This document shows, in pieces, positions 9,888-55,307 of a DNA stretch of 64,000 nucleotides (the stretch's first letter is position 1; every line of letters starts with the position of its first letter). This stretch comes from Pontibacter sp. G13. GTDB taxonomy: Bacteria > Bacteroidota > Bacteroidia > J057. The position numbers and the translations under genes were made by a program. Where the stretch lies: NCBI RefSeq assembly GCF_031851795.1, contig NZ_CP134696.1:1197001-1261000 (forward strand), given 5' to 3'. The notes beneath the pieces were generated by a model. It was not told the origin of the DNA, did not search any database, and worked only from the letters and a program-made list of their open reading frames with translations.

Positions 9888-10113
9888 GTGCGGCTGGCGA
9901 GTGCGGCGTAAGGGATGGGAATGGCGAGCCGTCAGGCGAGGTCCGAGGGTTCCATCTTTGCTTGGGCAAAGGCGTCAAGGTCAAGATAGCCTTGTGCTCC
10001 AAGCGCCTCATTCCGAGGACGGAGTGCAACGAACCCATGTAACAGCCCGGCCCCGCGACATAGATGCCAAGCAATTCTCTGTTTTCCAAGCACGCGGGGA
10101 TACGCCCAAATCT
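9888..10113 (-). repeat. Dispersed intergenic repeat, copy A (minus orientation)
   Basis: Read on the minus strand it begins TTTGGGCGTATCCCCGCG and contains TCGCGGGGCCGGGCTG, then a CTCCGTCCTCGG block, and ends with CATTCCCATCCCTTACGCC and CCAGCCGCACC. The same order of blocks recurs at 18.2, 40.9, 49.7, 52.5 and 55.0 kb. In this copy the basal stem is CCCCGCG/CGCGGGG, a compensatory change relative to CCCGGCG/CGCCGGG elsewhere. It fills most of the 472-bp gap between 9743 and 10216, where I see no gene. Confidence 0.75.
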
Positions 10114-10864: not shown

Positions 10865-13800
10865 CTATTCAATGACCACCTTGCCGAAGTAGGACGTCTC
10901 ACCCCGCAATTCGAAGAGATACACACCCTCCGAGAGGTTTCCGCGATCCAGGTCGAAATAGTCGGCGCGTGTGAGAGGCAGCCTCTTTACCACGCGTCCC
11001 TGCATATCCCACAAGATGAGCGAGTTGAGCTTCATATCGGGATTATCAAAGGTGATCCGAGTGGATTCAGAGAACGGGTTCGGCGCTATTCGTACATGGT
11101 TCCAATTAGGATCGGGCAATGCAGTCGGACTTGCGATGGTATTGACCGCCTCATTGGTGAAGATCGGTTCGTTGAAGTCAAAGTAGATTCCTGCATCATT
11201 TCGGAGCTGAGTGCCATAATCGAGCGCACCGCTGTGCTTCATTCCGAATTTGATGAATCCGATACTACCCATCGGATCTGAGAGGGAATCAGGCAGCCAG
11301 ATATCGCTGAAGGTGAATACCAAGATATTTCCATCCTCCACCCGCATGGTGAAATCGTGGCTGTAGTTTTTGACATAGAGCGATTCGATGGGCAGATTGG
11401 ACTCCAAGGTATCGCGCAAGATCACGCGGATCGCCGGGAAGTTACCGGTATTCTGGAAACGGATGGTATACGTCAAATCACGCTCGGACTGCTGAATATA
11501 TCCCAGTGGGCCTTCGCCTTCCTTGGATTGCTTGTCGTTGGGGTCGTATGCTCCCAGAATTTCCGCTGCGTAATCGTCCTGATTGTTGCCGGGAACCATG
11601 TCTCCGATCACAGGAACGACCGATGCTTGGTTGAATACGGAGTCTCCAATCGTTGCCAACGTATCCACCTCGGTATAGGCTTTGAGCATGATGCTCTGTT
11701 GGGGAGCGAGGTTACCCAAGTTCCAGGTGGCGGTACGAGTCACAGGATCATAGGAAGTGGCTGGCGGATTGAAGCTAGTCACATCAAATGCATCATCGTG
11801 AATCCAAGTGGCCACTACTCCTGAGACTGGATAATTCTGGGTCTGAACCAGGAGATTGAAGATCACCCCGAGACCGGGTACGGGTGGGGTGTAGGCTTGT
11901 TGATCGATGGACACATCAAATGCAGAGTCTGCCTCAATCGGGAAATCCAATCCTGTGGCCGAGCTACCAACTCCTGCAAACGTAGCGGAATGCGTTCCAG
12001 AAGGTAGGCAAATGGCATTGATCGACCCCACAAAGGAGGAAATGAGCTGGATCGAATAGGTACCTGATCCGACCACCAGTTGGTAATTGCCTTGCGCATC
12101 GGATACTGCGTGCTTGCCATTGGCATAGACCATAGCATGGGGGATGGCGGCATCTCCGGCATCAAAGAGGCAGTTGGCATTCATATCCACATACACCTTA
12201 CCCTCGATGACGTTCTGACAAGCCAATGCCTGCGGGTCTAGTTCGATTTGATCCAGCGCAAAGCAACCAGCGGCATCCGTCACCTGAATCACGTAAGTAC
12301 CTGCTGATAGTCCTGTCTGAGAAAGTCCTGTACCTCCATTGGACCAGCTCACGGTGTAAGGAGCTGTACCACCTGAAATGGCCAAGCTGATCTGACCATC
12401 AGAAAGACCACAGCTCGGTTGAGTCAGTGTAGTGCTGAATGACAAATCGGTGGAAGAGACAAAATAGGTCTGCGACAGGATCAATCCCCCCGAAGCGTCG
12501 AAGTATTGAACGGTATAAGGACCAGAAGCCAATCCAGACAGATCCTCCGTGGTAGCGCCATTGCTCCATACCAAGGAACTGTAAGGGAAATTCACCGTCA
12601 GGTCAATCGCTCCTGTATTGGCCGTACAGGTGGTAGGAGTCACGACCGCATCTCCCCAAGCCTGAATATCCAGGTAGATGACCTTGGCATTGCGAGAAGG
12701 ATATGGACAGTTACCATCCTCAATCGTCACATAGACCGGGATGAGGGTATCTGAGTCAAACTGCGGAATATCCCATACCACATTGGCCGTAACAGGTCCA
12801 GAACCGCTATGCGTGACCGTGGCACCGGGCAGATCCACCAGCATGGATTCAACCAATTTCGGTGTATCACCTGGATCGAGCATTTCGAGGTCAAAAGAAA
12901 GCTGGGTGCCGGAAATCGCCTCAATCGTGCTATCGCCGATGACTGCAACAGCATTGGTGCTGGTCAGGCTGCCAAAGGTAGGAATGGCATTTCCGGGGGA
13001 ACAAGCCTGCATGTCGACGATGATTTCGCGACGAACTACGGTGACGGTGGAATCCGTATCTGAATCTTCCGTGATATTGACCACAATGGTCGCTTTCTCA
13101 GGGGTGCCAGTTCCATTGGGCAAAACGGTCAAAATTCCCGTGGTCCAATCCAGCGAAACATTCCAGTTGGGGCCTAGAGGCGTCCAACCATTGTACCCAG
13201 TTGAGTAGGTCGCAATATTGGTGGGCCAGCTGGTGTAGGCATAGACCAAATGATAATTCAAATCGTCCCCATCAGGATCAATCGCAGAAAGATCGAACAC
13301 ACCACCAGTAGTAGCACATCCTGTCAAATACTGCGGATTTCGGGGAATAGGTGCATGGTTGACTCCAATCTGAATCGGATCTAGGTAGCTATCGAGGGAG
13401 ATGCTGGTATTCTCACTCGCGCCACCATTGGTGAGGTCGACCGGGCGGCAACAACCATCTACCACGATATTGAAATTACAGATGAACCCAGATGGGTCCA
13501 ATTCATAGCTGTACACATACTCCATCACTCCCATCGTCGTGGACAATGGATCTGTACACGAAGAAGCGACAGACGGGCAAAGGGCCGTAACTTCCGTCCA
13601 GCTTTCAAGCAGGGGATTGGCGAGCGATACGGGCGTTCCGCACTGTCCCCAAGAAGGGGTCGCGACTCCAGTGGGAGCGACAGGCGCAGAGGCTACATTG
13701 ATCGGAGCATTCACTCCGGCTTCGCAATCCTCATAGGTGCGGACGTACACTTTCCACAGTTGTGGCGTCAGTGCCTCGTACCAGATTTCGCGGCCATAAT

Positions 13801-13882
13801 GTTCTGCGGCGGAAGCGGGCAAAAACGATCCGATGAGGCATAAAATCGCCATGATCGCCTTCAAGATGGTTTTTTGAATCAT
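10865..13882 (-). CDS. Large T9SS-exported protein with SprB-type repeat (1,005 aa), paralogue 1
   Basis: A cell-surface protein exported through the type IX system. The start at 13882 (MIQKTILKAIMAILCLIGS) gives a Sec signal ending SAA; the longer TTG-initiated frame lacks one. N-terminal domain: AEHYGREIWYEALTPQLWKVYVRTYEDCEAGVN, with Cys pairs. Cadherin-like stretches follow, such as SAIDPDGDDLNYHLVYAY. At about 480-560 there is an SprB-type repeat (SCGLSDGQISLAISGGTAPY), then an SdrD-B-like Ca-binding segment (DMNANCLFDAGD). Near the C-terminus is a conserved domain (AYDPNDKQSKEGEGPLGYI, DUF7619-like from memory) and a type A sorting domain (APNPFSESTRITF ... GVYLFELRG ... GKVVIE). The next gene is a paralogue; both probably act in adhesion or gliding. 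Confidence 0.88.
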   Translation of the reverse strand: MIQKTILKAIMAILCLIGSFLPASAAEHYGREIWYEALTPQLWKVYVRTYEDCEAGVNAPINVASAPVAPTGVATPSWGQCGTPVSLANPLLESWTEVTALCPSVASSCTDPLSTTMGVMEYVYSYELDPSGFICNFNIVVDGCCRPVDLTNGGASENTSISLDSYLDPIQIGVNHAPIPRNPQYLTGCATTGGVFDLSAIDPDGDDLNYHLVYAYTSWPTNIATYSTGYNGWTPLGPNWNVSLDWTTGILTVLPNGTGTPEKATIVVNITEDSDTDSTVTVVRREIIVDMQACSPGNAIPTFGSLTSTNAVAVIGDSTIEAISGTQLSFDLEMLDPGDTPKLVESMLVDLPGATVTHSGSGPVTANVVWDIPQFDSDTLIPVYVTIEDGNCPYPSRNAKVIYLDIQAWGDAVVTPTTCTANTGAIDLTVNFPYSSLVWSNGATTEDLSGLASGPYTVQYFDASGGLILSQTYFVSSTDLSFSTTLTQPSCGLSDGQISLAISGGTAPYTVSWSNGGTGLSQTGLSAGTYVIQVTDAAGCFALDQIELDPQALACQNVIEGKVYVDMNANCLFDAGDAAIPHAMVYANGKHAVSDAQGNYQLVVGSGTYSIQLISSFVGSINAICLPSGTHSATFAGVGSSATGLDFPIEADSAFDVSIDQQAYTPPVPGLGVIFNLLVQTQNYPVSGVVATWIHDDAFDVTSFNPPATSYDPVTRTATWNLGNLAPQQSIMLKAYTEVDTLATIGDSVFNQASVVPVIGDMVPGNNQDDYAAEILGAYDPNDKQSKEGEGPLGYIQQSERDLTYTIRFQNTGNFPAIRVILRDTLESNLPIESLYVKNYSHDFTMRVEDGNILVFTFSDIWLPDSLSDPMGSIGFIKFGMKHSGALDYGTQLRNDAGIYFDFNEPIFTNEAVNTIASPTALPDPNWNHVRIAPNPFSESTRITFDNPDMKLNSLILWDMQGRVVKRLPLTRADYFDLDRGNLSEGVYLFELRGETSYFGKVVIE

Positions 13883-14039
13883 AGTAATTAGGTTGATAAG
13901 TGTCGAAGAAATGGCCGGAGGAGGTCCAACTGGACAAATGGCCAATTCCCTAACTTATCCCTATCCACGTATTCAGAACTTCGAAAGGTTGGGTATTAGA
14001 TAAAAAAATGTGATTCGATCATTTCATTTTTCCGAATAA

Positions 14040-14116: not shown

Positions 14117-17110
14117 CTATTCAATGACCACCTTGCCGAAATAGGACGTCTCGCCCCGCAATTCGAAGAGATACACACCCTCCGAGAGGTTTCCGCGATC
14201 TAATTCGAAATAGTCGGCGCGGCTTGCCGGAAGCCTTTTCACCTCACGGCCCTGCATATCCCACAGGATGAGCGAGTTGAGCTTCATATCGGGATTGTTG
14301 AAGGTGATCCGCGTGGATTCAGAGAATGGGTTCGGCGCTACCCGAACATCTTGCCAATTAGGATCGGGCAATGCTGTCGGACTGGCAATGGTATTGACCG
14401 CCTCATTGGTGAAGATCGGCTCGTTGAAGTCAAAGTAGATCCCCGCATCGTTTCGGAGCTGGGTACCATAGGGCAATGCGCCGCTATGCTTCATACCGAA
14501 CTTCACGAATCCGATACTTCCAGCGGGGTCGGAGGCAGAGTCCGGCAACCAGATGTCGTTGAAGGTGAATACCAAGATGTTTCCATCCTCCACCCGTATA
14601 TCAAAATCGTGGCTGTAGTTTCGGATGTACAAGGATTCCACAGGAAGATTGGACTCTAGAGTATCACGCAAGATCACGCGAATAGCCGGGAAGGTGCCTG
14701 TATTCTGGAACCGGATGGTATATGTCAGATCACGCTCGGACTGCTGAATATAGCCCAGTGGGCCTTCGCCTTCCTTGGACTGCTTGTCGTTGGGGTCGTA
14801 GGCGGCCAGCACCACTGATTTCAATGTGTCTAGGTTATTGACGACATCTGCATCTCCCACCAATGGCGTTACAGATACATAGTGGAATACAGAATCGCCC
14901 ATAATGGCTGTGGTATCAACAAACCCATAGGCATACAATTCCACAATCTGGTAGGGATTGATAGTTCCGAGATTCCAGATTGCAGTACCTGAGACTGGAT
15001 CGTACGAAGTTGCCGGAGGGCTGAAAGATACATTCTGCAGAACAGGATCATGTACCCAAGTCAACACCGCATTATTGGCAGGGAACCCCTGAGTCCTTAC
15101 CTTCAAATAATTGCTTTGCCAAAGTCCGGGAACGAATGGCGTAGCCATCTCCTGATCCACCGAGATATCGAAAGTCGCGTCCTTTTCTATCGGCAGATGG
15201 AGATTCGAGACGGTTTCGCCTAACCCTGTGAACGTGTGTGTAACTTCGCCTGCTGGATAACAAGCTGTACTCACGTTTCCGGGGAAAGCAACTGTAGGTT
15301 TAACCGTGTAGGTACCGACATTTGTAAAGAAATCGAACTCCCCATTCATGTCAGTCTTATCAAAGTGGTAGGTTCCTCGCTGTACGATATGACCTGGAAT
15401 CGGAAAATCGCCCGCATCATACACGCAATCCCCATTCATATCCAGATAGAGAACTCCTGTCATCTGATTGAGACAGAAGCCGGATGCCATATTCAACTCT
15501 ATCAATTCTTGCGAGAAGCACCCATTGGCATCGACGACCTGCACCACAAAATCTCCATCTGGAAGATTGGATTGGGTAGTTCCCGAACCTCCGTTTGACC
15601 AATTGACTGTATAGGGCGCAGTTCCTCCAGTTATGGTGATATCGATTTGACCGTCTGATTGCCCACATGTAGGCTGGATCAAGGTGTGGGAGAAAGTCAA
15701 ATCGGAAGAAGAAACGAAATAGGTTTGCGTCCAGATCAACCCGCCTGCGGCATCAAAGAGCTCCACCATGTAAGGCCCAGATGCCAATCCTGTAAGGTCT
15801 TCCGTCGTGGCATTGTTGCTCCAGATGACACTTGCATACGGGATATTCACCGTCAAATCAATGGCTCCAGTATTCGCGGAACAGCTGGATGGAGTGACAG
15901 TGGCAGAGATCGGATTTTCGACCTGAACGTATACCACTTTGGCATTGCTCGCTGGATGGGGACAATGTCCATCTTGGATGGTCAAGTACACCGCGATGGT
16001 TGTATCGATGTAATTCGCTGGGACATTCCATTGAATGTGTGCATTGACAGGGCCCGTGCCTGTATGCGTAACGGTTGCACCCGGCAAATCCACAAACATG
16101 GATTCCAGCAGGTGAGGTGAATCCCCAGGGTCTGACATTTCGACGGTCAGGTCAAAGGGCTGACCTGCGGTTGCCAGAAAGGTGTCGGGGCCGACCAATC
16201 CTCCCGAGGTACTGGTGATATTCCCAAAAGTAGGCAAGGCATTGGCGGATGGGCAAGCTTGCATGTCTATGACCACGTCCCGATTGGTCACAGAAAGGGT
16301 GGAATCAAAATCTCGATAGTGTTCTTGGACTCTTACCTTTAGGGCGACTTTCTCCGGAGAACCTACTCCATTAGGCAAAACAGAAAGTATGCCTGTTTGC
16401 GCATCAATGGAAATATCCCAGTTGGGGCCCATCAATTGATTCCACCCGTAGGAGCTGCCGGATATACCTCTCAACTGGTACACCAAACTATCCCCATCCA
16501 GATCTATACTAGAAAGGTCAAAGACTCCACCAGAGGATGCACATCCAGTCAGATGTACAACCTGACGGGGCTGAGGCGAGTGGTTATTTCCATTGAGCAG
16601 ACTAAAAAAGGACACATAATTCCGTATACCCAAGGAGGCTCCAGCGACTCCATTGGTTAGATCCACGGGACGGCAGCACTCTTCCACTTGAAAGTCAAAC
16701 CATGTCCCAAAACCGGTTGGATCAAAGTCATAAGCGTATATGTATTCCATAATCCCCACAATAGCTGAGGTGGGATCTGTACAGGTAGACACACTCCCCG
16801 GACAAAGCGCCGTCACTTCAGTCCAAGATTCCAAACTAGGATTGGTGAGTGTCTGCTGGGCCCCCCAACCAGTAGTGCCGAGTTCTCTTGCTATTATAGT
16901 AGGGGCTGACGGAACTGCAGCAACACTAATAGGCGCATTCACCCCTACCTCGCAATCTTGATAGGTCCGTAAGTATACTTTCCAATTCGTAGGCGAAATG
17001 ACTTCATGCCACATCTCTCGCCCCATCAAATTCCCTGCAGAACTCGTCAGGCATGTGGACACCAGACATCCTAGCAGGATGAGCATCCGGACATTGAAAA
17101 CATGATTCAT
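14117..17110 (-). CDS. Large T9SS-exported protein with SprB-type repeat (997 aa), paralogue 2
   Basis: A full-length paralogue of the 10865-13882 gene with the same order of parts: signal peptide (MNHVFNVRMLILLGCLVSTCLTSSA), N-terminal domain beginning GREMWHEVISPTNWKVYLRTYQDCEVGVN, an Asp-rich cadherin-like strand (SSIDLDGDSLVYQLRG), an SprB-type repeat (TCGQSDGQIDITITGGTAPY), a DMNGDCVYDAGD Ca-binding loop, the DPNDKQSKEGEGPLGYI domain and a type A sorting domain ending GKVVIE. The last about 240 residues are nearly identical to paralogue 1 even at DNA level, whereas residues about 600-800 have diverged strongly. That points to gene conversion of the C-terminal half. The gene has its own terminator and leader, so the two are probably separate transcripts. 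Confidence 0.88.
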   Translation of the reverse strand: MNHVFNVRMLILLGCLVSTCLTSSAGNLMGREMWHEVISPTNWKVYLRTYQDCEVGVNAPISVAAVPSAPTIIARELGTTGWGAQQTLTNPSLESWTEVTALCPGSVSTCTDPTSAIVGIMEYIYAYDFDPTGFGTWFDFQVEECCRPVDLTNGVAGASLGIRNYVSFFSLLNGNNHSPQPRQVVHLTGCASSGGVFDLSSIDLDGDSLVYQLRGISGSSYGWNQLMGPNWDISIDAQTGILSVLPNGVGSPEKVALKVRVQEHYRDFDSTLSVTNRDVVIDMQACPSANALPTFGNITSTSGGLVGPDTFLATAGQPFDLTVEMSDPGDSPHLLESMFVDLPGATVTHTGTGPVNAHIQWNVPANYIDTTIAVYLTIQDGHCPHPASNAKVVYVQVENPISATVTPSSCSANTGAIDLTVNIPYASVIWSNNATTEDLTGLASGPYMVELFDAAGGLIWTQTYFVSSSDLTFSHTLIQPTCGQSDGQIDITITGGTAPYTVNWSNGGSGTTQSNLPDGDFVVQVVDANGCFSQELIELNMASGFCLNQMTGVLYLDMNGDCVYDAGDFPIPGHIVQRGTYHFDKTDMNGEFDFFTNVGTYTVKPTVAFPGNVSTACYPAGEVTHTFTGLGETVSNLHLPIEKDATFDISVDQEMATPFVPGLWQSNYLKVRTQGFPANNAVLTWVHDPVLQNVSFSPPATSYDPVSGTAIWNLGTINPYQIVELYAYGFVDTTAIMGDSVFHYVSVTPLVGDADVVNNLDTLKSVVLAAYDPNDKQSKEGEGPLGYIQQSERDLTYTIRFQNTGTFPAIRVILRDTLESNLPVESLYIRNYSHDFDIRVEDGNILVFTFNDIWLPDSASDPAGSIGFVKFGMKHSGALPYGTQLRNDAGIYFDFNEPIFTNEAVNTIASPTALPDPNWQDVRVAPNPFSESTRITFNNPDMKLNSLILWDMQGREVKRLPASRADYFELDRGNLSEGVYLFELRGETSYFGKVVIE

Positions 17111-18114: not shown

Positions 18115-18200
18115 GCATACATTCCAATTTTTCAAGCACTTAGGATTGAGCGACTTCCTTTCTGACACATGTGCCAGCCTTGGGCATTCATGAGAGGTAT

Positions 18201-18415
18201 TTGGGCGTGCCCCGGCGTACTGACCAGCCAGATTCCTCCAAGACAGGCAAGTCGCCGGGTCGGGTGCTTCCGGGCTACGCGTTCGCTTCGGTCGGTGATG
18301 AGGATTCCCGCTCCAATCTACCAAGCTTGATTTCAATCGAGCACCGCCCAATTTGATCTACTAGGCACCGACTACCCCTTCAGCCCCCTCACGCCACACA
18401 AGCCAGCCGCACCTG
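18201..18415 (+). repeat. Dispersed intergenic repeat, copy B
   Basis: It begins TTGGGCGTGCCCCGGCG (18201), has the pairing arm CGCCGGGTCGGGTG about 50 nt later, a diverged middle, and ends CCCTCACGCC ... AGCCAGCCGCACCT (18415). It occupies half of the 571-bp gap between rpmA and the MBOAT gene. I see no gene in the rest (18416-18630). Confidence 0.72.
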
Positions 18416-40917: not shown

Positions 40918-41012
40918 TGATTTGGGCATGCCCCGGCGAGCCTAGAATCGTTTGCCTCACGAGCATCAAGCGCCGGGTCGGGCTATGCGGGGGTATCGTC
41001 CTCGGACTTGAA
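40918..41012 (+). repeat. Dispersed intergenic repeat, copy C (head part)
   Basis: TTTGGGCATGCCCCGGCG is followed about 35 nt later by CGCCGGGTCGGGCT and a CGTCCTCGGACTTG block. A CCTCCTATCCCTCATGCG tail at about 41096-41113 is the likely 3' end, with a diverged middle. It fills the 422-bp gap between the M56 gene and the 41195 operon, together with the terminator. Confidence 0.65.
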
Positions 41013-41194
41013 GATCAATCAATACCTGATTCCTCCCCCATTCATGACCTACTCCTTGACATCACAACCAAATTCCTCCGACCTCGCAAGCTCGCCCCTC
41101 CTATCCCTCATGCGATTCCCCGCACCAATCTCACGAATGGCCATAGCAGATAGATCCGCACTTGATATTTGCGGAGAATTAGTATATTGTAATT

Positions 41195-48948: not shown

Positions 48949-49072
48949 AATTATATCCGGAGATCGCCATAAGCCCCATAATTTTTCACCAACCTTTCGA
49001 TTCCGCACATTTCAAAAAGCACAGATTGCAAAAAAGTTCTATATTTCGGCAAATAACGTAAGTTTACCTTTC

Positions 49073-49576
49073 ATGTCGAACGTGTTCACCTTTTCGTTGG
49101 AGGGCTGGGAAGAAACAGAAACCGGCCTTCTGGTGGCTGAGTCTGAACAATGGGTCCTGATCCAGAGCATGCCGATGGATTACTTGATCGATGGATACAA
49201 ACTGATCAAGAAATCCGAAATCTACTCCCAAGATCAAGGGGCCGAGGAAGAACGAATAGCCAAAGTGCTCTCCCTACGCGGGATCGAGCCCAAAATGCCC
49301 GAAGGATTTGAGTTCGGGAATGCGCAAAGCATGCTGACCTGGATCGAGGCGAAATACGACCTGTTCCAGTTTCAGGATTTGGAGGAGGATACCCTACAGA
49401 TCGGGCGGATGTATGATGTGGTGGACGGCGAGATGCTGACCATTGACTACATAGATGCCGATGGCCAGATTGAATCCCCCTATGACTATGAATTTGTCCT
49501 TCGACAGATCCGGGTGATCACGTTCGGAACGGACTACTTGGACGGTGTCAACCTGCTTCGCCAAAATCAGGATTGA
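49073..49576 (+). CDS. Hypothetical acidic protein (167 aa)
   Basis: MSNVFTFSLEGWEETETGLLVAESEQWVLIQSMPMDYLIDGYKLIKKSEI is followed by a Glu- and Asp-rich region. There is no signal peptide or membrane helix. The pattern suggests a small beta-rich cytoplasmic protein; I do not recognise the family. The ATG at 49073 is chosen because the longer frame overlaps the end of the giant surface gene and has no sensible content. The promoter is not obvious. Confidence 0.68.
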   Translation: MSNVFTFSLEGWEETETGLLVAESEQWVLIQSMPMDYLIDGYKLIKKSEIYSQDQGAEEERIAKVLSLRGIEPKMPEGFEFGNAQSMLTWIEAKYDLFQFQDLEEDTLQIGRMYDVVDGEMLTIDYIDADGQIESPYDYEFVLRQIRVITFGTDYLDGVNLLRQNQD

Positions 49577-49603
49577 CCACATACTGCTGACTACTGAAGA
49601 GTG

Positions 49604-49638
49604 AAGGGGCTGTCTCAATCTGAGATGGCCCCTTGTTT
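49604..49638 (+). terminator. Intrinsic terminator after the small acidic protein
   Basis: AAGGGGC(tg)TCTCA (49604-49617) pairs with TGAGA(t)GGCCCCTT (49621-49634) and is followed by GTTTGT. Confidence 0.7.
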
Positions 49639-49650
49639 GTTGGAGGATGA

Positions 49651-49874
49651 TCTGGGCGTATCCCGGCGATCTGACAACCATACCTCCCCTGTGATCCATG
49701 ACGCCGGGCCGGGCTGATCCATGGGTTCGCGGTGCTCCGTCCTCCTCATATTTTCCCGCTGAGTGCAGCTCCCCTCCTCCCAATTCGGGGACCTGAGCAT
49801 CCATGCTCCTGCGACGGACTGCTCGTGAACTCGCACCATTCCCATCCCTTACGCCGCGCAACCAGCCGCACCTC
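49651..49874 (+). repeat. Dispersed intergenic repeat, copy D
   Basis: It begins CTGGGCGTATCCCGGCG and has the partner arm CGCCGGGCCGGGCTG about 45 nt later, then GGGTTCGCGGTGCTCCGTCC and finally CATTCCCATCCCTTACGCC and CAGCCGCACC. It is the most complete copy in plus orientation. It fills the 412-bp gap before the VOC gene; the remainder (49875-49988) holds no gene. Confidence 0.75.
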
Positions 49875-49988
49875 TCCATCAAGTCCGAGTCTCCCCACAA
49901 TCGGATTGGAAAGCCAAGGCTGAGTCGCTACATTCTAGGTTGAAGGTCCTCTACTTCAGAGGATACCACCCTCAACTCAAGATCATTT

Positions 49989-50405
49989 ATGAAACGTGTC
50001 ACAGGAATCGGAGGCGTCTTCTTCAAATGCCAAGACCCCGACCGAATGAAGGATTGGTATCGCGATCATCTGGGTTTTAATACCGACAAATACGGAACCA
50101 CCTTCGTATGGCATGAACTCGGCCGGCCCAATGACAAAGCATATACCCAATGGAGCCCGTTTGACGCCAAGACGACGTATTTTCAGCCGTCTGAAAAGCA
50201 ATTTATGCTCAACTATCGTGTGGCGGATCTGGAAGGGCTCCTCAAGGTACTGAAGGAGGAAGGCGTGGAAATCGTGGGAGAGATGCAAACTTTCGACTAC
50301 GGAAAATTTGCGCACATCATGGACCCCGAAGGCAACAAAATTGAGTTGTGGGAGCCCGTAGATCAAGTTTTCACCGATTCCGAAGATACGCGAACAACAC
50401 ACTAG
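49989..50405 (+). CDS. VOC-family protein (glyoxalase/dioxygenase-like)
   Basis: 138 residues with the two beta-alpha-beta-beta-beta modules of the vicinal-oxygen-chelate fold. MKRVTGIGGVFFKCQDPDRMKDWYRDHLGF is a typical first module and FDYGKFAHIMDPEGNKIELWEP the standard last one, where the Glu in IELWEP is a metal ligand. The specific reaction cannot be told. The gene is single. Confidence 0.9.
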   Translation: MKRVTGIGGVFFKCQDPDRMKDWYRDHLGFNTDKYGTTFVWHELGRPNDKAYTQWSPFDAKTTYFQPSEKQFMLNYRVADLEGLLKVLKEEGVEIVGEMQTFDYGKFAHIMDPEGNKIELWEPVDQVFTDSEDTRTTH

Positions 50406-50428
50406 TAGCGTAATTTCGCATTTTTCAT

Positions 50429-50436
50429 TATATTTG
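50429..50436 (+). promoter_or_regulatory. Possible -7 box of the thiolase gene
   Basis: TATATTTG matches TAnnTTTG exactly, 48 bp before the thiolase start. The -33 element is weak (no TTTG at the expected distance), so this is only suggestive. Confidence 0.35.
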
Positions 50437-50484
50437 AAGATCATATCCTGATCTTTCAGTAGACCATTCTTTTAACATCAAAAG

Positions 50485-51663
50485 ATGAAGGAAGTATATA
50501 TCGTATCGGCTGTCCGTACTCCGATCGGAAGTTTCGGCGGCATCCTCTCTGGGATTTCCGCGACCCAATTGGGCGCAAAAGCCATCAAAGGCGCACTTGA
50601 GCGTGCGGGGGTAGCAGCCTCCGAAGTTCAGGAAGTCTTCATGGGCAATGTGGTTTCTGCCAACTTGGGACAGGCTCCGGCCCGTCAGGCAGCAATCTTT
50701 GCGGGAATCGGCAACAACGTTCCCTGTACCACAGTGAACAAGGTATGCGCTTCCGGTGCGAAGTCTATCATGTTCGGCGCCCAAAGCATCATGCTGGGTC
50801 AAAACGACCTCGTAGTTGCCGGTGGCATGGAGAACATGTCCCAAATCCCCTACTACGTACCCAAAGCTCGTTTCGGCTACAAATACGGCGACGCCGCCTT
50901 GATCGACGGATTGGCGAAAGACGGCCTGACTGATGTCTACAATCAGCAGGCAATGGGCATCTGTGCCGATGCCACCGCTGCCAAGTACAACATCAGCCGT
51001 GAAGAGCAAGACGAATTCGCCATACTCTCCTATACACGCTCCGCTGCTTCCACCGAAGCCGGCAAATTCGGACAGGAGATTATCCCCGTTGAGATTCCTC
51101 AGCGCAAGGGAGATCCCCTCATCGTAGGTGAAGACGAGGAATTCAAGAAGGTGAAGTTCGAAAAGATCCCAGCCCTTCGTCCAGCATTCTCCAAAGACGG
51201 TACCGTGACCGCGGCCAATGCCTCCACCATCAATGATGGAGCCTCTGCCCTGATCCTCGCCAGCAAGGAGAAAGTCGAAGAACTCGGTCTCAAGCCGATC
51301 GCCAAGATCTTGTCCTTTGCAGATGCAGCTCAAGAGCCTGAGTGGTTCACCACGGCTCCTACGATCGCTGCACCATTGGCCCTCAAACGTGCCAACTTGA
51401 CCTTGGACGATGTGGACTTCTTCGAAGTGAACGAGGCGTTTGCGGTCGTTACCTTGGCCTTTAACAAGGTACTAGGGGTAGACGTGAACAAAGTGAATAT
51501 CCACGGCGGCTCGGTATCTCTGGGTCACCCATTGGGTGCTTCTGGCGCTCGGATCATCACAACCCTCAACGGTGTCCTCCAACAAAACGAAGGTGAAATC
51601 GGCCTCGCAGCAATCTGCAACGGTGGCGGAGGGGCGTCGGCGATGGTCCTCCAAAAACTGTAA
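50485..51663 (+). CDS. Acetyl-CoA acetyltransferase (thiolase)
   Basis: 392 residues, the family's normal length. The nucleophile is Cys88 in NKVCASGAKS. Later catalytic parts are NEAFAVV, GHPLGASGARI and the final CNGGGGASAMV, with the second Cys. It should catalyse the reversible condensation or thiolysis of acetyl-CoA and acetoacetyl-CoA; longer chain lengths cannot be excluded. No beta-oxidation genes flank it. Tandem terminator-bearing repeats follow directly. Confidence 0.95.
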   Translation: MKEVYIVSAVRTPIGSFGGILSGISATQLGAKAIKGALERAGVAASEVQEVFMGNVVSANLGQAPARQAAIFAGIGNNVPCTTVNKVCASGAKSIMFGAQSIMLGQNDLVVAGGMENMSQIPYYVPKARFGYKYGDAALIDGLAKDGLTDVYNQQAMGICADATAAKYNISREEQDEFAILSYTRSAASTEAGKFGQEIIPVEIPQRKGDPLIVGEDEEFKKVKFEKIPALRPAFSKDGTVTAANASTINDGASALILASKEKVEELGLKPIAKILSFADAAQEPEWFTTAPTIAAPLALKRANLTLDDVDFFEVNEAFAVVTLAFNKVLGVDVNKVNIHGGSVSLGHPLGASGARIITTLNGVLQQNEGEIGLAAICNGGGGASAMVLQKL

Positions 51664-51709
51664 TCGACGTATTTAGCTTGATCTCTTGCACGGATACGTC
51701 GTCTGGAAA

Positions 51710-51835
51710 TCTTCACTTGGAACACCAAGCTCAGATTTCCTTCCTTGTCTCCGCACAAGATCTCGGCGCTAAATCCGCCGATTGGACTGAAGGCTTCGCG
51801 CGGTTCTCGTCATCCGATGGGTACCGCGCTTTTTT
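51710..51835 (+). ncRNA. Candidate small RNA 1 (first of twin units) with terminator
   Basis: A core from 51710 to 51784 is identical over 75 bp to 51913-51987. It contains two potential hairpins (CTTGG-aaca-CCAAG; CGGCG-ctaaatc-CGCCG). A terminator stem GCGCGGT/ACCGCGC (51798-51804, 51823-51829) and TTTTTT end the unit. The sequence around the core has diverged between copies, which suggests selection on the core. No exact promoter match was found. It could instead be just a duplicated thiolase terminator region. Confidence 0.4.
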
Positions 51836-51912
51836 GCTCCGGAGCTGATTTCACAAAACTGTCTAATCGACGCAGGGCGCTTGAACGCTCTCACCGATAC
51901 GGCAGCGGGAAT

Positions 51913-52040
51913 TCTTCACTTGGAACACCAAGCTCAGATTTCCTTCCTTGTCTCCGCACAAGATCTCGGCGCTAAATCCGCCGATTGAGATTGATGCTTC
52001 GCGCGGTTTTCATCATCCGATGGGTACCGCGCATTTTTTT
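51913..52040 (+). ncRNA. Candidate small RNA 2 (second of twin units) with terminator
   Basis: The same 75-bp core (51913-51987) with the same hairpins. It ends in GCGCGGT (52001-52007)/ACCGCGC (52026-52032), then A and seven Ts. The period between the two units is 203 bp, measured from the TAATCGACG that begins each (51661 and 51864). Confidence 0.4.
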
Positions 52041-52054
52041 GCTCCAGAGCCCGA

Positions 52055-52487
52055 GGGAATGTTTAGAAAAGTGTGTCAACTGCTCCTGAACGTGTTGGGC
52101 TTGGAAATAACCCTATGGAAAGCTTCCACTCCCCTAAAAGCCCGGATCTGATCCCCATCGACGACAGATCCGGGCTTTCCTATGTAGCATGGTCGGGCAT
52201 TGGAAATAGCGGTCTTTGATCTGTCGTCCCTACAGGACTTGCAACTTGGTGGGCGGGAGCCGGATTTCGCACGGGCTGGTGCACTGGCCAAAAGGGTGCT
52301 GGGCCGACCACACATGCCCCCGTGGCGAGTTCCCAGAATGCCGATCACGCTCGGGGAGATTCCGGATATGGCTCCATGCGAGGGCCGTGGCCTATGCCAT
52401 TCCGGAATGACGCGGTTGATTGGGCGGGAGCCGGATTACGCTCGGGCCGGCCCACCGGCCGAAATCCGCCTCAGCCCATTTGAAATG
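52055..52487 (+). repeat. Direct repeat, left copy, flanking the RHS-toxin island
   Basis: It begins GGGAATGTTTAGAAAAGTGTG and ends CCCATTTGAAATGTGCGG. Long blocks are identical to 54525-54957, such as the region from TGTAGCATGGTCGGGCATTG to GGTGGGCGGGAGCCGGATT. It contains a perfect 14-bp hairpin, AAAGCCCGGATCTG (52137-52150) with CAGATCCGGGCTTT (52165-52178). GGGCGGGAGCCGGATT occurs twice inside the unit, so it has internal sub-repeats. Confidence 0.85.
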
Positions 52488-52711
52488 TGCGGCTGGCCTG
52501 CGGCGGCGATAGGGATGGGAGGGGCGAGCCGTCAGGCGAGGTCCGAGGGCTCCGGCATTTGATGGGAGCATGCTGAAATCCGGGATTTTTCATAAGGCCG
52601 AGCGGCAGATCCCGAGGACGGGAGCGCTAGCGGACTCCCGGAACAGCCCGGCCCGGCGACTGATTTGCCGAGGGAGGAATTCATGCCCAGCTCGCCGGGA
52701 TCGCCCAGATC
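52487..52711 (-). repeat. Dispersed intergenic repeat, copy E (minus orientation)
   Basis: Read on the minus strand: CTGGGCGATCCCGGCGAGCTG, then TCGCCGGGCCGGGCTG, GGGAG-tccgctagcg-CTCCCGTCCTCGG, then CTCGGACCTCGCCTGACGGC and CCATCCCTATCGCC. It directly follows the left direct repeat and overlaps the open frame in front of the RHS homology, which therefore starts inside non-coding repeat sequence. Confidence 0.75.
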
Positions 52712-53433
52712 ACCTTGAACCTCCAACATCGGATGATTTTCCGGAGGGATTCGACAATTGCAATTGCGACTATATCGAGGTGCTCGTGGCCGCGGAATAC
52801 GAACTGTACGGCTCCAAACGGCTGGGCAACTGGCTGGGCAGGCGCTTCCTGACGGGGCGCTACTTCGACAAGGCCACAGCCACCTATGGCCAGTCATTCG
52901 ACTTCCCGAAGGGATACCATCCGGATCGGAGCAACCCGACCGCTCCCGAGGCGACTGCGTATGGAGGGCCACTCTCGGCGGGGACCTTCTCGCTCGGTCA
53001 CAAGCGGTTCGAGGGCACCAACCACCTCGGAAATGTCCTCTCGGTCTTCTCCGACCGGAAGCTGCAGATCCCCGCTACGGGCATGCAGTATGTGGATGGG
53101 TATACGGCGGAGGTCTATGCGTACAATGATTACTATCGCACGGGTCGAAGAAGGGCTGCTTGTGGGGATGAGGTGGCGTCGCCCTTCGGGATGCTGATGC
53201 CGGGTAGAAATGGGCAAAGGGATGGGTATCGGTATGGGTTCCAGGGGCAAGAGGAGGATCAAGAAACAGGTCTTGTCAATTATGAGTATCGTATGCATAA
53301 TCCGAGGCTAGGCCGGTTCTTTGCTGTAGATCCATTGGCTGCAAAATATTCCTATAATTCACCTTATGCGTTTGCTGAAAACCGAGTAATTGATGGAATT
53401 GAATTAGAAGGTGCAGAATGGAAGCCCAAATAA
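52570..53433 (+). CDS. RHS repeat-associated core fragment, 5'-truncated, ends at in-frame stop
   Basis: True RHS homology begins only near 52765 (YIEVLVAAEYELYGSKRLGN); the first about 65 codons run through repeat copy E, so the real N-terminus of the ancestral Rhs protein is missing. Visible parts: RHS strands (KRFEGTNHLGNVLSVFSDRK), PFGMLMPGRN, and the core RYGFQGQEEDQETGLVNYEYRMHNPRLGRFFAVDPLA, followed by YSYNSPYAFAENRVIDGIELEGAEW, the conserved junction at which Rhs C-terminal toxins begin. It ends at TAA 53431-53433; translation in the same frame continues open to the toxin stop. This is an orphan, probably silent, toxin-tip module rather than a complete Rhs protein. Confidence 0.8.
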   Translation: MLKSGIFHKAERQIPRTGALADSRNSPARRLICRGRNSCPARRDRPDHLEPPTSDDFPEGFDNCNCDYIEVLVAAEYELYGSKRLGNWLGRRFLTGRYFDKATATYGQSFDFPKGYHPDRSNPTAPEATAYGGPLSAGTFSLGHKRFEGTNHLGNVLSVFSDRKLQIPATGMQYVDGYTAEVYAYNDYYRTGRRRAACGDEVASPFGMLMPGRNGQRDGYRYGFQGQEEDQETGLVNYEYRMHNPRLGRFFAVDPLAAKYSYNSPYAFAENRVIDGIELEGAEWKPK

Positions 53434-53517
53434 AAATGGACTGATGTTATTGAAAATTCAGGTCGAGGCGCATCTTTAATTAAAAAGTTAAAAGCAGATG
53501 GTGTTTATAAGGAAGGG

Positions 53518-54162
53518 ATGACTTATGCCCAAGCTTTTTCTCATCGTGTTCCTAGTATGGTTGCTAGGCAATTGGGTACAGATCCAAAGCCTGTTTATCA
53601 GTGTATGAATTTTGCGACAGCAGTTATTACTGAATACGCACATTTTTATAAACTAGAATTAAACATTCGTTCGGATAGAGCTGATAAGCGTAAGGAGCAT
53701 AGTAAAATTTCACCTGACCCTACCTACAACGGAACTTGGCAAGATTTTCATGGTGGTGCTGAGAATGACAATACGGGTAAAGGGAAATGGGGTAAATTCA
53801 GCAATTACTTTATGGCTTGGGAAGCTTATAACAATAATACTGTTTTTAATGATATTTCTTGGGATAATCTTCAACCAGGAGATATAATTGCTACACAATA
53901 TGATGATGGAGGGTATCATGCTCAGACTGTAGAGAGTATTGAGACGAAGGAAGAGACCAGTGGTTTTTTATGGTGGGAAACAACTGAGGAAGTTACTTAT
54001 GTAACAGTTACTCAAGGTAGTTTAGATAGTTCCAGGGATGGTTCTGCCTTAGCTAGAAAGACTTACAAATTAGAAAATTTAAAGGATAACAGACATTATG
54101 ATGATGACTCAGGTAAAAAAATTAAAGCTAGGAGACTTAATTATTCTAATATTAGTAATTAA
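53518..54162 (+). CDS. Papain-like (NlpC/CHAP-type) toxin domain of an Rhs C-terminus
   Basis: The open frame continues in phase from the RHS core after one stop codon (first sense codon 53434: KWTDVIENSGRGASLIKKL), and the first ATG is at 53518. The 214-residue product has a Cys in VYQCMNFATAV (Cys29) and, about 105 residues later, QPGDIIATQYDDGGYHAQTVESI (His134). A Cys, then a GDI strand and a His in a beta-sheet, is the layout of NlpC/P60 and CHAP amidases, so a peptidoglycan-targeting toxin is likely. Base use is strikingly AT-rich relative to the RHS core, a sign of lateral acquisition. Its end overlaps the lipoprotein gene by 65 nt. Function is inferred, not known. Confidence 0.7.
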   Translation: MTYAQAFSHRVPSMVARQLGTDPKPVYQCMNFATAVITEYAHFYKLELNIRSDRADKRKEHSKISPDPTYNGTWQDFHGGAENDNTGKGKWGKFSNYFMAWEAYNNNTVFNDISWDNLQPGDIIATQYDDGGYHAQTVESIETKEETSGFLWWETTEEVTYVTVTQGSLDSSRDGSALARKTYKLENLKDNRHYDDDSGKKIKARRLNYSNISN

Positions 54163-54490
54163 CGCTTCTTCATGTATCAATAAGTCTGTAAAAGATGATA
54201 GTATCCTAGGAACTTGGGATTTAGTGTGTTTGGATACTATTCATCAAGATCGATCATGGTCTGTTTCATTTTATGCTGATTCAACTTTTTTGTTAAATGA
54301 GAATTCAGTAGATGGGAGATGGTTTGTAAAAAATGATAGTTTAATAACTGAACTGATTTATGATGATGGTTTATCTGAAATGAAGATTAGTAAGATTAGG
54401 ATTTTACAAGACTCTTTGTTTTTATCGGAAGACTTTTATCGGAATATACTTGAGAAGTACAAGACTTCAAGTATTTATGTAAGGCATTAA
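54098..54490 (+). CDS. Lipoprotein, probable immunity protein for the adjacent toxin
   Basis: A lipoprotein signal (MMMTQVKKLKLGDLIILILVINASSC, lipobox ASSC) leads into SILGTWDLVCLDTIHQDRSWSVSFYADSTFLLNENSVDGRWF, a small lipocalin-like beta fold common in Bacteroidota. The gene overlaps the toxin frame by 65 nt and shares its AT-rich composition, so the two were acquired together. A periplasmic, lipid-anchored partner is exactly what would protect against a cell-wall amidase. Immunity is inferred from position, compartment and size. Three Met codons make the start slightly uncertain. Confidence 0.7.
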   Translation: MMMTQVKKLKLGDLIILILVINASSCINKSVKDDSILGTWDLVCLDTIHQDRSWSVSFYADSTFLLNENSVDGRWFVKNDSLITELIYDDGLSEMKISKIRILQDSLFLSEDFYRNILEKYKTSSIYVRH

Positions 54491-54524
54491 AATAATGGGT
54501 GTACAGTTCAGAAAGGGAATGTTC

Positions 54525-54957
54525 GGGAATGTTCAGAAAAGTGTGTCAACCGCTCCTTGGACGTGGGGCTTGGAAATGATCCCAGAGACAGCGTCCTCTC
54601 CTACAAGCCCGGATCTGCCCCCCATCGACTCCAGATCCGGGCTTTCCTATGTAGCATGGTCGGGCATTGGAAATAGCGGTCTTTGATCTGTCGTCCCTAC
54701 AGGACTTGCAACTTGGTGGGCGGGAGCCGGATTACCCAAGGGCCGGTGCACTTGCCGGATTCCGGCCCGGGCGATCACACATGCCCCCGTGGCGAGTTCC
54801 CAGAATGCCGATCACGCTCGGGGAGATCCGGATATGGCTCCATGGGAGGGCCGTGGCCAATGCCATTCTGGAATGACGCGGTTGATTGAGAGCGAGCCGG
54901 ATTACGCGCGGGCCCGAGCACTGGGCCGAAATCCGGCTCAGCCCATTTGAAATGTGC
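54525..54957 (+). repeat. Direct repeat, right copy, flanking the RHS-toxin island
   Basis: It begins GGGAATGTTCAGAAAAGTGTG and ends CCCATTTGAAATGTGCGG, matching the left copy through most of its length. The hairpin AAGCCCGGATCTG (54605-54617) with CAGATCCGGGCTT (54632-54644) is kept although the loop differs. A short partial duplication of the left boundary (GTTCAGAAAGGGAATGTTCG) precedes it at 54505. Confidence 0.85.
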
Positions 54958-55142
54958 GGATGGCCAGCGGCGGCGTGAAGGCTCCGGAGTGGCCGCCCTT
55001 AGGCGGCGTCTGGGATCTGGGGGCGGCGGTATCTCGCCCCCAGATCTCAGACCGAGCGCCAGCGAGTATGGAGGAGCCTGACCCAGCGAATCTATGGCCA
55101 AGCAGGAGCTCATCTGCCCAACCGCTGGGGCACGCCCAAATC
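54955..55142 (-). repeat. Dispersed intergenic repeat, copy F (diverged, minus orientation)
   Basis: On the minus strand: TTTGGGCGTGCCCCAGCG and later TTCGCTGGGTCAGGCT. The basal stem has become CCCAGCG/CGCTGGG, an A-T pair where other copies have G-C or C-G. The middle holds a separate GGGGGCG...CGCCCCC hairpin (about 55018-55060). It directly follows the right direct repeat, mirroring copy E. The gap 55143-55307 has no gene. Confidence 0.65.
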
Positions 55143-55307
55143 AGCACGAAGCCCAATCGGTGAGTTTTGCTAAAAAGGCCAATTCCAGCCGCTCATTTGG
55201 GAAAAACGGGCCAAATCATCAACTTTCCGTTCAAGACCGCATCCCTCCCATTTGTCAATTTCCCCTAGGCAACCTCTAGTGGGACACGTTTGCCTGAATA
55301 TCACATT

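Follow-up and report, generated by a model that had tools for sequence, protein, structure and literature searches.

A dispersed intergenic repeat family of Pontibacter sp. G13 with a conserved fold that may act in DNA

A repeated sequence with a conserved fold can be a structured RNA, a site that serves the host, or a piece of mobile DNA, and the question raised by this locus is which of these applies to a repeat that recurs between genes of Pontibacter sp. G13. We studied a stretch of 64,000 nt (contig NZ_CP134696.1, positions 1,197,001 to 1,261,000; here called the window) in which an original prediction, made from the sequence alone, had named six copies, A to F. All six are real family members. 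A covariance model (R1) built from 22 copies of this genome (alignment A2) matched them at E values between 7e-43 and 3e-13 when run over 864 kb.

The element is mostly 165 to 260 nt long (most R1 matches, 163 to 258 nt; full range, 119 to 258 nt among 82), and both of its ends are sharp. On the left, TTT is present in 93 to 94% of the copies and is followed by GGGC; on the right, CCGCAC is present in 91 to 95%, after which flank similarity is lost. Past the right end there is a weak preference for T and no T tract common to the copies. The fold consists, in order, of a closing helix (P1), a 5′ hairpin (P2), and a helix (P3) that encloses further hairpins. P2 pairs CCCxGCG with CGCxGGG, where x is G, C, A or T, around a loop of about 30 to 40 nt. 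P3 is made of three pairs, then a middle position usually occupied by a C·T or C·C mismatch, then two more pairs; 2 of the 22 seed copies, copy F among them, have bases there that can pair. Inside P3 lie a small hairpin, the highly variable P5 hairpin, and the weakly supported hairpin P6 (71.6% of cells paired in 82 copies). Read by eye, the subclasses differ in the letters of P3 and in the base of P5 (GTCC/GGAC, GTCT/AGAC or GTCG/CGAC).

In the window, copy A (9889-10113, minus strand; R1 score, 145.3 bits) is of class 1 and has a long P5, with helices P1 at 10101-10106/9905-9910, P2 at 10093-10099/10051-10057, P3 at 10043-10048/9912-9917, and the P5 base at 10017-10020/9941-9944. Copy B (18197-18411, plus strand; 108.5 bits), with a P5 base of the GTCG/CGAC type, has P1 at 18204-18209/18390-18395, P2 at 18211-18217/18253-18259, and P3 at 18262-18267/18383-18388. 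The most diverged copy is C (40918-41124, plus strand; 52.0 bits; E = 3e-13), whose P1, P2 and P3 occupy 40925-40930/41109-41114, 40932-40938/40971-40977, and 40980-40985/41102-41107. Copy D (49648-49870, plus strand; 103.1 bits) has P1 at 49655-49660/49850-49855, P2 at 49662-49668/49702-49708, P3 at 49711-49716/49843-49848, and the P5 base at 49739-49742/49816-49819. Copy E (52488-52712, minus strand; 147.6 bits) has P1 at 52700-52705/52505-52510 (five of the six bases of the left arm are in the model's helix listing, and the sixth was read from the sequence), P2 at 52693-52699/52652-52658, P3 at 52644-52649/52512-52517, and the P5 base at 52616-52619/52541-52544. Copy F (54955-55143, minus strand; 152.4 bits) is of class 2, with a long near-perfect P5 hairpin (base at 55049-55052/55008-55011) and P1, P2 and P3 at 55131-55136/54972-54977, 55123-55129/55082-55088, and 55074-55079/54979-54984.

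The arms quoted in the original prediction are correct (CCCGGCG/CGCCGGG in B to E, CCCCGCG/CGCGGGG in A, and CCCAGCG/CGCTGGG in F), but they form P2 and not, as proposed, the basal stem. The basal helix is P1, in which GGGCGT pairs with ACGCC, two blocks that had been listed and left unpaired. P1 reads GGCGTA/TACGCC in A and D, GGCGTG/CACGCC in B and F, GGCGAT/ATCGCC in E, and GGCATG/CATGCG with a broken outermost pair in C, so that its covariation is visible even among these six copies. Of the ordered blocks described as common to the copies, GGGCGT is absent from E (GGGCGAT) and C (GGGCATG), and the block CGTCCTCGG occurs unaltered in A, C and E rather than in all six. It has 3 matches in the window against 0.45 expected, a number reached by 2 of 100 shuffles.

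The conserved fold is real. The 22 seed copies had been picked from about 50 to balance the subclasses and aligned with MAFFT, with the structure drawn by eye from that alignment. Paired cells, double-change cells, and the covariation score exceeded all 500 shuffles and all slid versions in the 22-copy set, in an 82-copy set, in 47 Flavobacteriaceae copies, and in 20 MAFFT-aligned sequences from several lineages. In the seed set, 93.4% of 543 cells were paired, compared with 80.3% after shuffling and at most 50.0% when one side was slid, although two cruder measures were weaker (11 double-change pairs, with 32 of 500 shuffles as high, and 23 extra pair types, with 45 of 500). In the 82-copy alignment, which was fitted to the structure and is hence biased towards it, 93.9% of 1,982 cells were paired, 19 of 25 pairs showed double changes, and 280 double-change cells were counted against 71.4 in shuffles (none of 500 as high); extra pair types numbered 46 against 41.2, a value reached by 23 of 500. 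All five pairs of P3 covary in both alignments. Across lineages, 96.9% of 256 cells were paired and double changes numbered 20 against 2.9 in shuffles. Between nearest copies (65 copies), paired columns differ at 6.4% and unpaired columns at 19.3%, and this threefold difference indicates that some form of selection holds the stems.

The family far exceeds the minimum of six copies first named, which itself was correct. Across 864 kb R1 found 82 copies, or one every 10.5 kb or so, a density that is approximate since the 864 kb comprise the window and two 400-kb stretches, one of which was picked for its dense top matches. Genome-wide, all 150 scored candidates (of 1,767 proposed) matched R1, giving at least 150 copies, and if the density of the 864 kb holds, the total is probably in the hundreds, roughly 700. 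A Blast search with copy E returned 52 matching stretches in the 7.67-Mb genome, some of them two halves of one copy. The placement of the copies between genes, as originally described, is broadly right: with a greedy set of open reading frames (ORFs), 11 of 82 copies lie under an ORF of at least 150 amino acids, none has 150 nt of the covering ORF beyond both element ends, and no long ORF is interrupted on both sides. No autonomous copy with an internal gene was found among the 82.

The intergenic regions of this genome are mosaics that also hold other repeats (GTCATCCTGAACGCCCAT.., GGGGCACGGTCTCGTGCC.., GACGGCAATGGCC..GATCGGGGATCTCC; for example, L045 1660-2410, and the flanks of many copies). 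In the window, a stretch of about 490 nt occurs twice, once beside the 3′ end of copy E and once beside that of copy F (52055-52543 and 54525-55010; 77 to 94% identity per block). It includes a near-palindrome of 41 nt, AAAGCCCGGATCTG...CAGATCCGGGCTT, and seems to represent a second repeat family. The very weak Acido-Lenti-1 matches inside this duplication (52214-52239 and 54681-54706; 18.2 bits; cut-off, 37) are probably due to chance. Two 175-nt direct repeats with 203-nt spacing and 86% identity occupy 51661-52038, and two adjacent large minus-strand ORFs (10865-13945 and 14117-17110), probably paralogues, are 89% identical over their C-terminal 300 nt.

A scan of the window with Rfam at its own thresholds returned one tRNA and nothing else. 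The nearest relative of the family that we found is nevertheless an Rfam entry, Flavo-1 (RF01705; Weinberg et al., 2010), which has a P1, P3 and P5 similar to those described here. Compared with it, the window copies are longer and carry P2, with its 30- to 40-nt loop, and extra hairpins, and the Rfam model lies on the opposite strand. RF01705 itself matched neither the window at its curated cut-off (42 bits), nor positions 49000-56000 with copies D, E and F at E values up to 5, nor this genome at an E value of 0.001 among 22 scored of 935 candidates. R1, on the other hand, matched 8 of 40 genomes, including its own, and some elements that it found in other families are also RF01705 matches (L117, 54.9 bits; L123, 54.0 bits, with the sequence TTTGGGCGTGTCCC..GGGGTCGGGCTGTACGCTCTATCTTTTTT..AAAAAAGGATGCCGCTCCCATCCCTCACGC; L118, 49.5 bits); a scan of 10 loci with R1 elements gave RF01705 matches in 3, on the opposite strand. 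A general model built from both kinds of element (R3) finds both, with E values of 6e-15 in the Pontibacter genome and 4e-15 in genome G060. As judged from such model matches, the family is shown by bridging sequences to be a homologue, albeit distant, of Flavo-1. It is a new, expanded and structurally richer branch.

The likeness to sequence in many Bacteroidota genomes that the original prediction mentioned is borne out: among 296 genomes from the phylum, R3 matched 50, this one included, and the matches span 15 families. The Flavo-1 model matched 27 of 198 phylum genomes at an E value of 0.001 (21 above the cut-off), this genome not among them. In these large searches the filters were stricter and few candidates were scored in each genome, so the counts are lower bounds. 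A specific sequence pattern had no match in 84,980 named genomes, a set from which this genome's own or very near records may be absent.

In RNA helices, G·U substitutes for Watson-Crick pairs, and a G·U on one strand is an A·C on the opposite strand. Wobble pairs are nearly absent from P1 to P3 (5 G·T and 10 A·C in 1,456 cells), whereas 16 distinct tRNAs identified with ARAGORN in the fetched loci had 27 G·U (8%) and no A·C among 335 pairs. One P3 pair in Flavobacteriaceae takes all four Watson-Crick types (15, 13, 13 and 2 of 45 read cells) and has 2 unpaired cells and no G·U. The near absence of wobble pairs in P1 to P3 argues that pairing is selected in DNA and not in RNA. Counting against this, the Flavobacteriaceae P5 has 9 G·T and no A·C in 356 cells, with 7 of the 9 at one pair where two subclasses may be misaligned. 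In minimum-energy folds of single copies, DNA energies recovered P1, P2 and P3 in more copies than RNA energies did, whichever strand was folded: P3 in 47 versus 22 of 82 copies on the reverse strand and 21 versus 9 on the modelled strand, and P1 in 50 versus 26 of 82 on the reverse strand. P5 was recovered better with RNA energies on the modelled strand (32 versus 25 of 78) and better with DNA energies on the other. For many copies the predicted fold is not the one of minimum energy even as DNA: with DNA energies, P3 is missing from 61 of 82 copies when the modelled strand is folded and from 35 of 82 when the other strand is.

These results weigh on the reading under which Rfam lists Flavo-1, namely, a small RNA or cis element that folds after transcription and has been copied around the genome. 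Rfam classes RF01705 as "Gene; sRNA," and the 2010 discovery table has the entry "RNA? y, cis-reg? n," marking it as RNA and not as cis-regulatory (PMC2864571). The strong covariation and the P5 of Flavobacteriaceae, with some G·T and no A·C, would fit such an RNA, but wobble in P1 to P3 is as rare as A·C mismatches, the elements point either way relative to genes (in tandem gaps, 12 same and 20 opposite), and F. psychrophilum transcripts are out of step with the motif (PMC9723704). The tests proposed in the original prediction also implied RNA, a view that the pair counts and the better fit of P1 to P3 with DNA energies leave unsupported. We regard the RNA reading as doubtful and its chance as small. 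That the pairing would act in DNA, as the base-pair counts and folding models suggest, we hold more firmly than any route by which the elements may move.

Pairs of copies that are about 86 to 97% identical sit in unrelated flanks (e.g., 97.2% over 179 nt), and their similarity starts within a few nucleotides of TTTGGGC and stops 1 to 16 nt past CCGCAC. No target duplication was detected in 114 copies, the best signal being 3 of 114 over 3,250 tests, in a scan whose end finder misplaces some starts and could miss a weak signal. Near-identical copies in unrelated flanks, sharp ends, and no target duplication together indicate that the family disperses. Some pairs share an extra 200 to 300 nt on the right (L045/L047/L051 and L065/L068). 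A relative of copy E on contig C2 is 93% identical and also has 300 nt of left flank in common, and it is therefore no evidence of precise movement. The ends TTTGGGC and CCGCAC are not inverted copies of each other, and no terminal inverted repeat was found. With neither inverted repeats nor a detected target duplication, the family does not match a miniature element (MITE) of a DDE transposon, nor does it match an intrinsic terminator, given that the copies share no T tract and lie in both orientations to genes. Dispersed, intergenic and numerous as the copies are, they might also be taken for the decayed ends of an ordinary transposon, without constraint on the stems. The original prediction had named this as the outcome that would refute it. 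The mobile-like dispersal is indeed seen, but the copies have neither terminal inverted repeats nor target duplication, and their stems are three times more conserved than unpaired columns; this last result refutes the decayed-end reading unless it is an alignment artefact, and we give that reading almost no weight.

No clean pre-insertion site was seen in a search with the joined flanks of 114 copies, which gave 15 spanning matches from 2 queries. Fourteen of these trace to a single copy lying inside a tandem array of ∼114-bp units (10 hit the array, and 4 weak ones hit two other loci), which proved on inspection to be a rearrangement; the remaining match is an artefact of a misplaced element start. 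The array itself (L094 12891-14372), interrupted by the one element copy, looks coding and rearranged. A candidate empty site in Flavobacterium (L213) reads as a deletion between GCAGG repeats and not as a pre-insertion site.

The 78 copies that could be placed relative to genes prefer convergent gaps (35 versus 13.6 expected by length) over divergent (11 versus 17.7) and tandem ones (32 versus 46.7). Close copies lie mostly tail to tail: in the 864 kb, all 7 pairs of neighbors at most 500 nt apart are convergent, as are 6 of 8 pairs (2 divergent) in the other fetched loci, a nonrandom sample. Along the chromosome, whose origin was not located, no orientation bias is evident in 149 copies.

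Some copies appear to stay in place. A Flavobacterium-type model (R2) found 47 copies in a set of 80 named loci around nrdB, whose titles place nearly all of them in Flavobacteriaceae and which do not all span the three sites in question: 14 copies lie between genes that we take, from reading the translated sequence by eye, to be nrdB and nrdA (site 1), 14 shortly after the presumed nrdA (site 2), and 6 upstream of a presumed tyrA-like gene (site 3). The variable P3 pair is CCAG/CTGG in 11 of 14 copies at site 1, compared with 2 of 33 elsewhere, and CCTG/CAGG in all 6 at site 3, which points to inheritance in place at these two sites; site 2 is mixed, with CCCG/CGGG commonest. The P5 tip is swapped wholesale between same-site copies, while the P5 base is usually kept. 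Some P5 tips in these loci (L190-L269) resemble other palindromic repeats. Mean core identity within sites 1, 2 and 3 is 82, 80 and 93%, and five of the six flank means are 45 to 64%, the right flank of site 3 being at 93% and the shuffled baseline at 42% (means leave out L202 at site 1 and L210 at site 2). Cores of different sites are equally alike (81 to 83%), so that homogenization rather than local function can explain the conservation of the core, and within-site conservation was dropped as a proof of function.

This pattern could nevertheless reflect a DNA site that serves the host in the manner of bacterial interspersed mosaic elements (BIMEs), folded or extruded by supercoiling, bound by a nucleoid, topology or recombination protein, kept by selection, and multiplied in an old burst. 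The persistence of copies at the same sites (14, 14 and 6 of 80 loci), their core identity of 80 to 93% next to mostly lower flanks, the site-specific P3 pair at sites 1 and 3, the constrained stems, and the preference for convergent gaps would all agree with it, but presence is patchy even among close species, between-site cores are as alike as those within sites 1 and 2, so that family-wide homogenization fits the same data, and R3 detected no copy in 246 of 296 phylum genomes, with few candidates scored in each. We consider a host-serving site unlikely, roughly one chance in a handful.

What kind of mobile DNA, then, would behave like this? IS200/IS605 elements have no terminal inverted repeat, make no target duplication, and carry subterminal hairpins. 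Integron attC sites recombine as folded single strands, with structure kept, sequence free, and a variable terminal hairpin. BIMEs, formed of repetitive extragenic palindromes (REPs), are short, intergenic, palindromic, and present in hundreds of copies, with inverted pairs and with pairs of unlike members common. The family shares the missing terminal repeats and target duplication and the hairpins with nonautonomous IS200/IS605 derivatives; the folded form, conservation of structure over sequence, and variable terminal hairpin with attC; and all the listed features with BIMEs. It differs from each: an attC consensus is unlike the family element, 6 of 18 element-bearing genomes show no detectable Y1_Tnp gene, and the orientation bias that lagging-strand movement of the IS608 type would predict is not evident. 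REPs are 20- to 40-bp palindromes with a GTAG or CGTC foot (PMC3733652), whereas the family elements are mostly 165 to 260 nt with a multihelix fold, their ends (TTTGGGC and CCGCAC) lack such a foot, and no RAYT neighbor was seen. By analogy, no inverted repeat or target duplication, precise ends, a constrained and strand-symmetric fold, and hundreds of noncoding copies are the pattern of elements handled as folded single-stranded DNA, of which IS200/IS605 and REP elements are the known examples.

We therefore lean, with somewhat better than even confidence, towards a branch of Bacteroidota-wide nonautonomous elements that would act as a folded DNA strand, either single stranded or as a cruciform, and be moved by a putative enzyme supplied in trans. 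Such an enzyme would recognize the folded strand, cut at the foot of P1, and insert the strand elsewhere, much as in IS200/IS605 and REP elements. We only infer this movement step, because no transposase was found. Once in place, the fold may sometimes be kept by selection or by repeated conversion, a step suggested by the same-site copies that persist between Flavobacterium species. Two further observations count against the trans-mobilized folded strand: a purely selfish element would have no need of the same-site copies seen at three places in Flavobacteriaceae, and one-sided stem changes outnumber double ones between nearest copies (58 versus 40 in 65 copies, with reciprocal pairs counted twice).

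A Y1/RAYT transposase encoded next to its own elements is an improbable candidate for the enzyme. A Y1_Tnp gene (Pfam) was found in 12 of 18 element-bearing genomes, with two in this genome, and none was detectable in the other 6. At 30 of 49 Y1 places (loci of about 3 kb each), R1 and R3 found no element and R2 found 3, one of them convincing; Y1/RAYT mobilization is thus unsupported by both the gene search and the three-model scan. One gene of this genome (L131 1065-2101) is RAYT-like and has the motifs NHIH and YIHQNP. It is flanked on both sides by a different repeat, on one side with an in-frame SGPCAGLPRSPR-like sequence, and is a candidate REPtron of its own. One study lists these motifs for RAYT subclass 2.6 of Bacteroidetes and reports that "atypical secondary structures," of which further copies lie at other places in the genome, flank the subclass (PMC6006769), and a rival reading is a REP-type element moved by a Y1 HUH transposase of this subclass. 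None of R1, R2 and R3 found a family element at the L131 locus, however, and that gene's flanking repeats and the 6 bearing genomes with no detectable Y1_Tnp speak against a RAYT as well; its likelihood is very low. A precedent for elements with no dedicated transposase known is given by the CGTC-type REPs (PMC3733652).

A broader reading, to which we give slightly less than an even chance, is that Flavo-1 is no RNA family but the part so far noticed of a class of mobile DNA elements spread across Bacteroidota. Its members would be multihelix folded single strands moved by a yet-unrecognized class of enzyme; they would have a P5 tip that can be swapped, number in the hundreds in some genomes, and in some cases have been adopted by the host in place. 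Our literature search, which covered few subscription journals and partial texts, found no description of Flavo-1 as a DNA or mobile element. A review names it in a section on the most abundant small RNAs and gives no function there (PMC9029176). If pairing is selected in DNA, then a large class in the phylum's RNA catalogues is false, and a genuine system of mobile DNA has gone unnoticed. The comparison of G·T with A·C counts is a simple test of DNA versus RNA that could also be run on other orphan motifs. With its probable hundreds of copies, this genome makes a search for the enzyme possible, and Flavo-1 itself merits reexamination as a DNA element.
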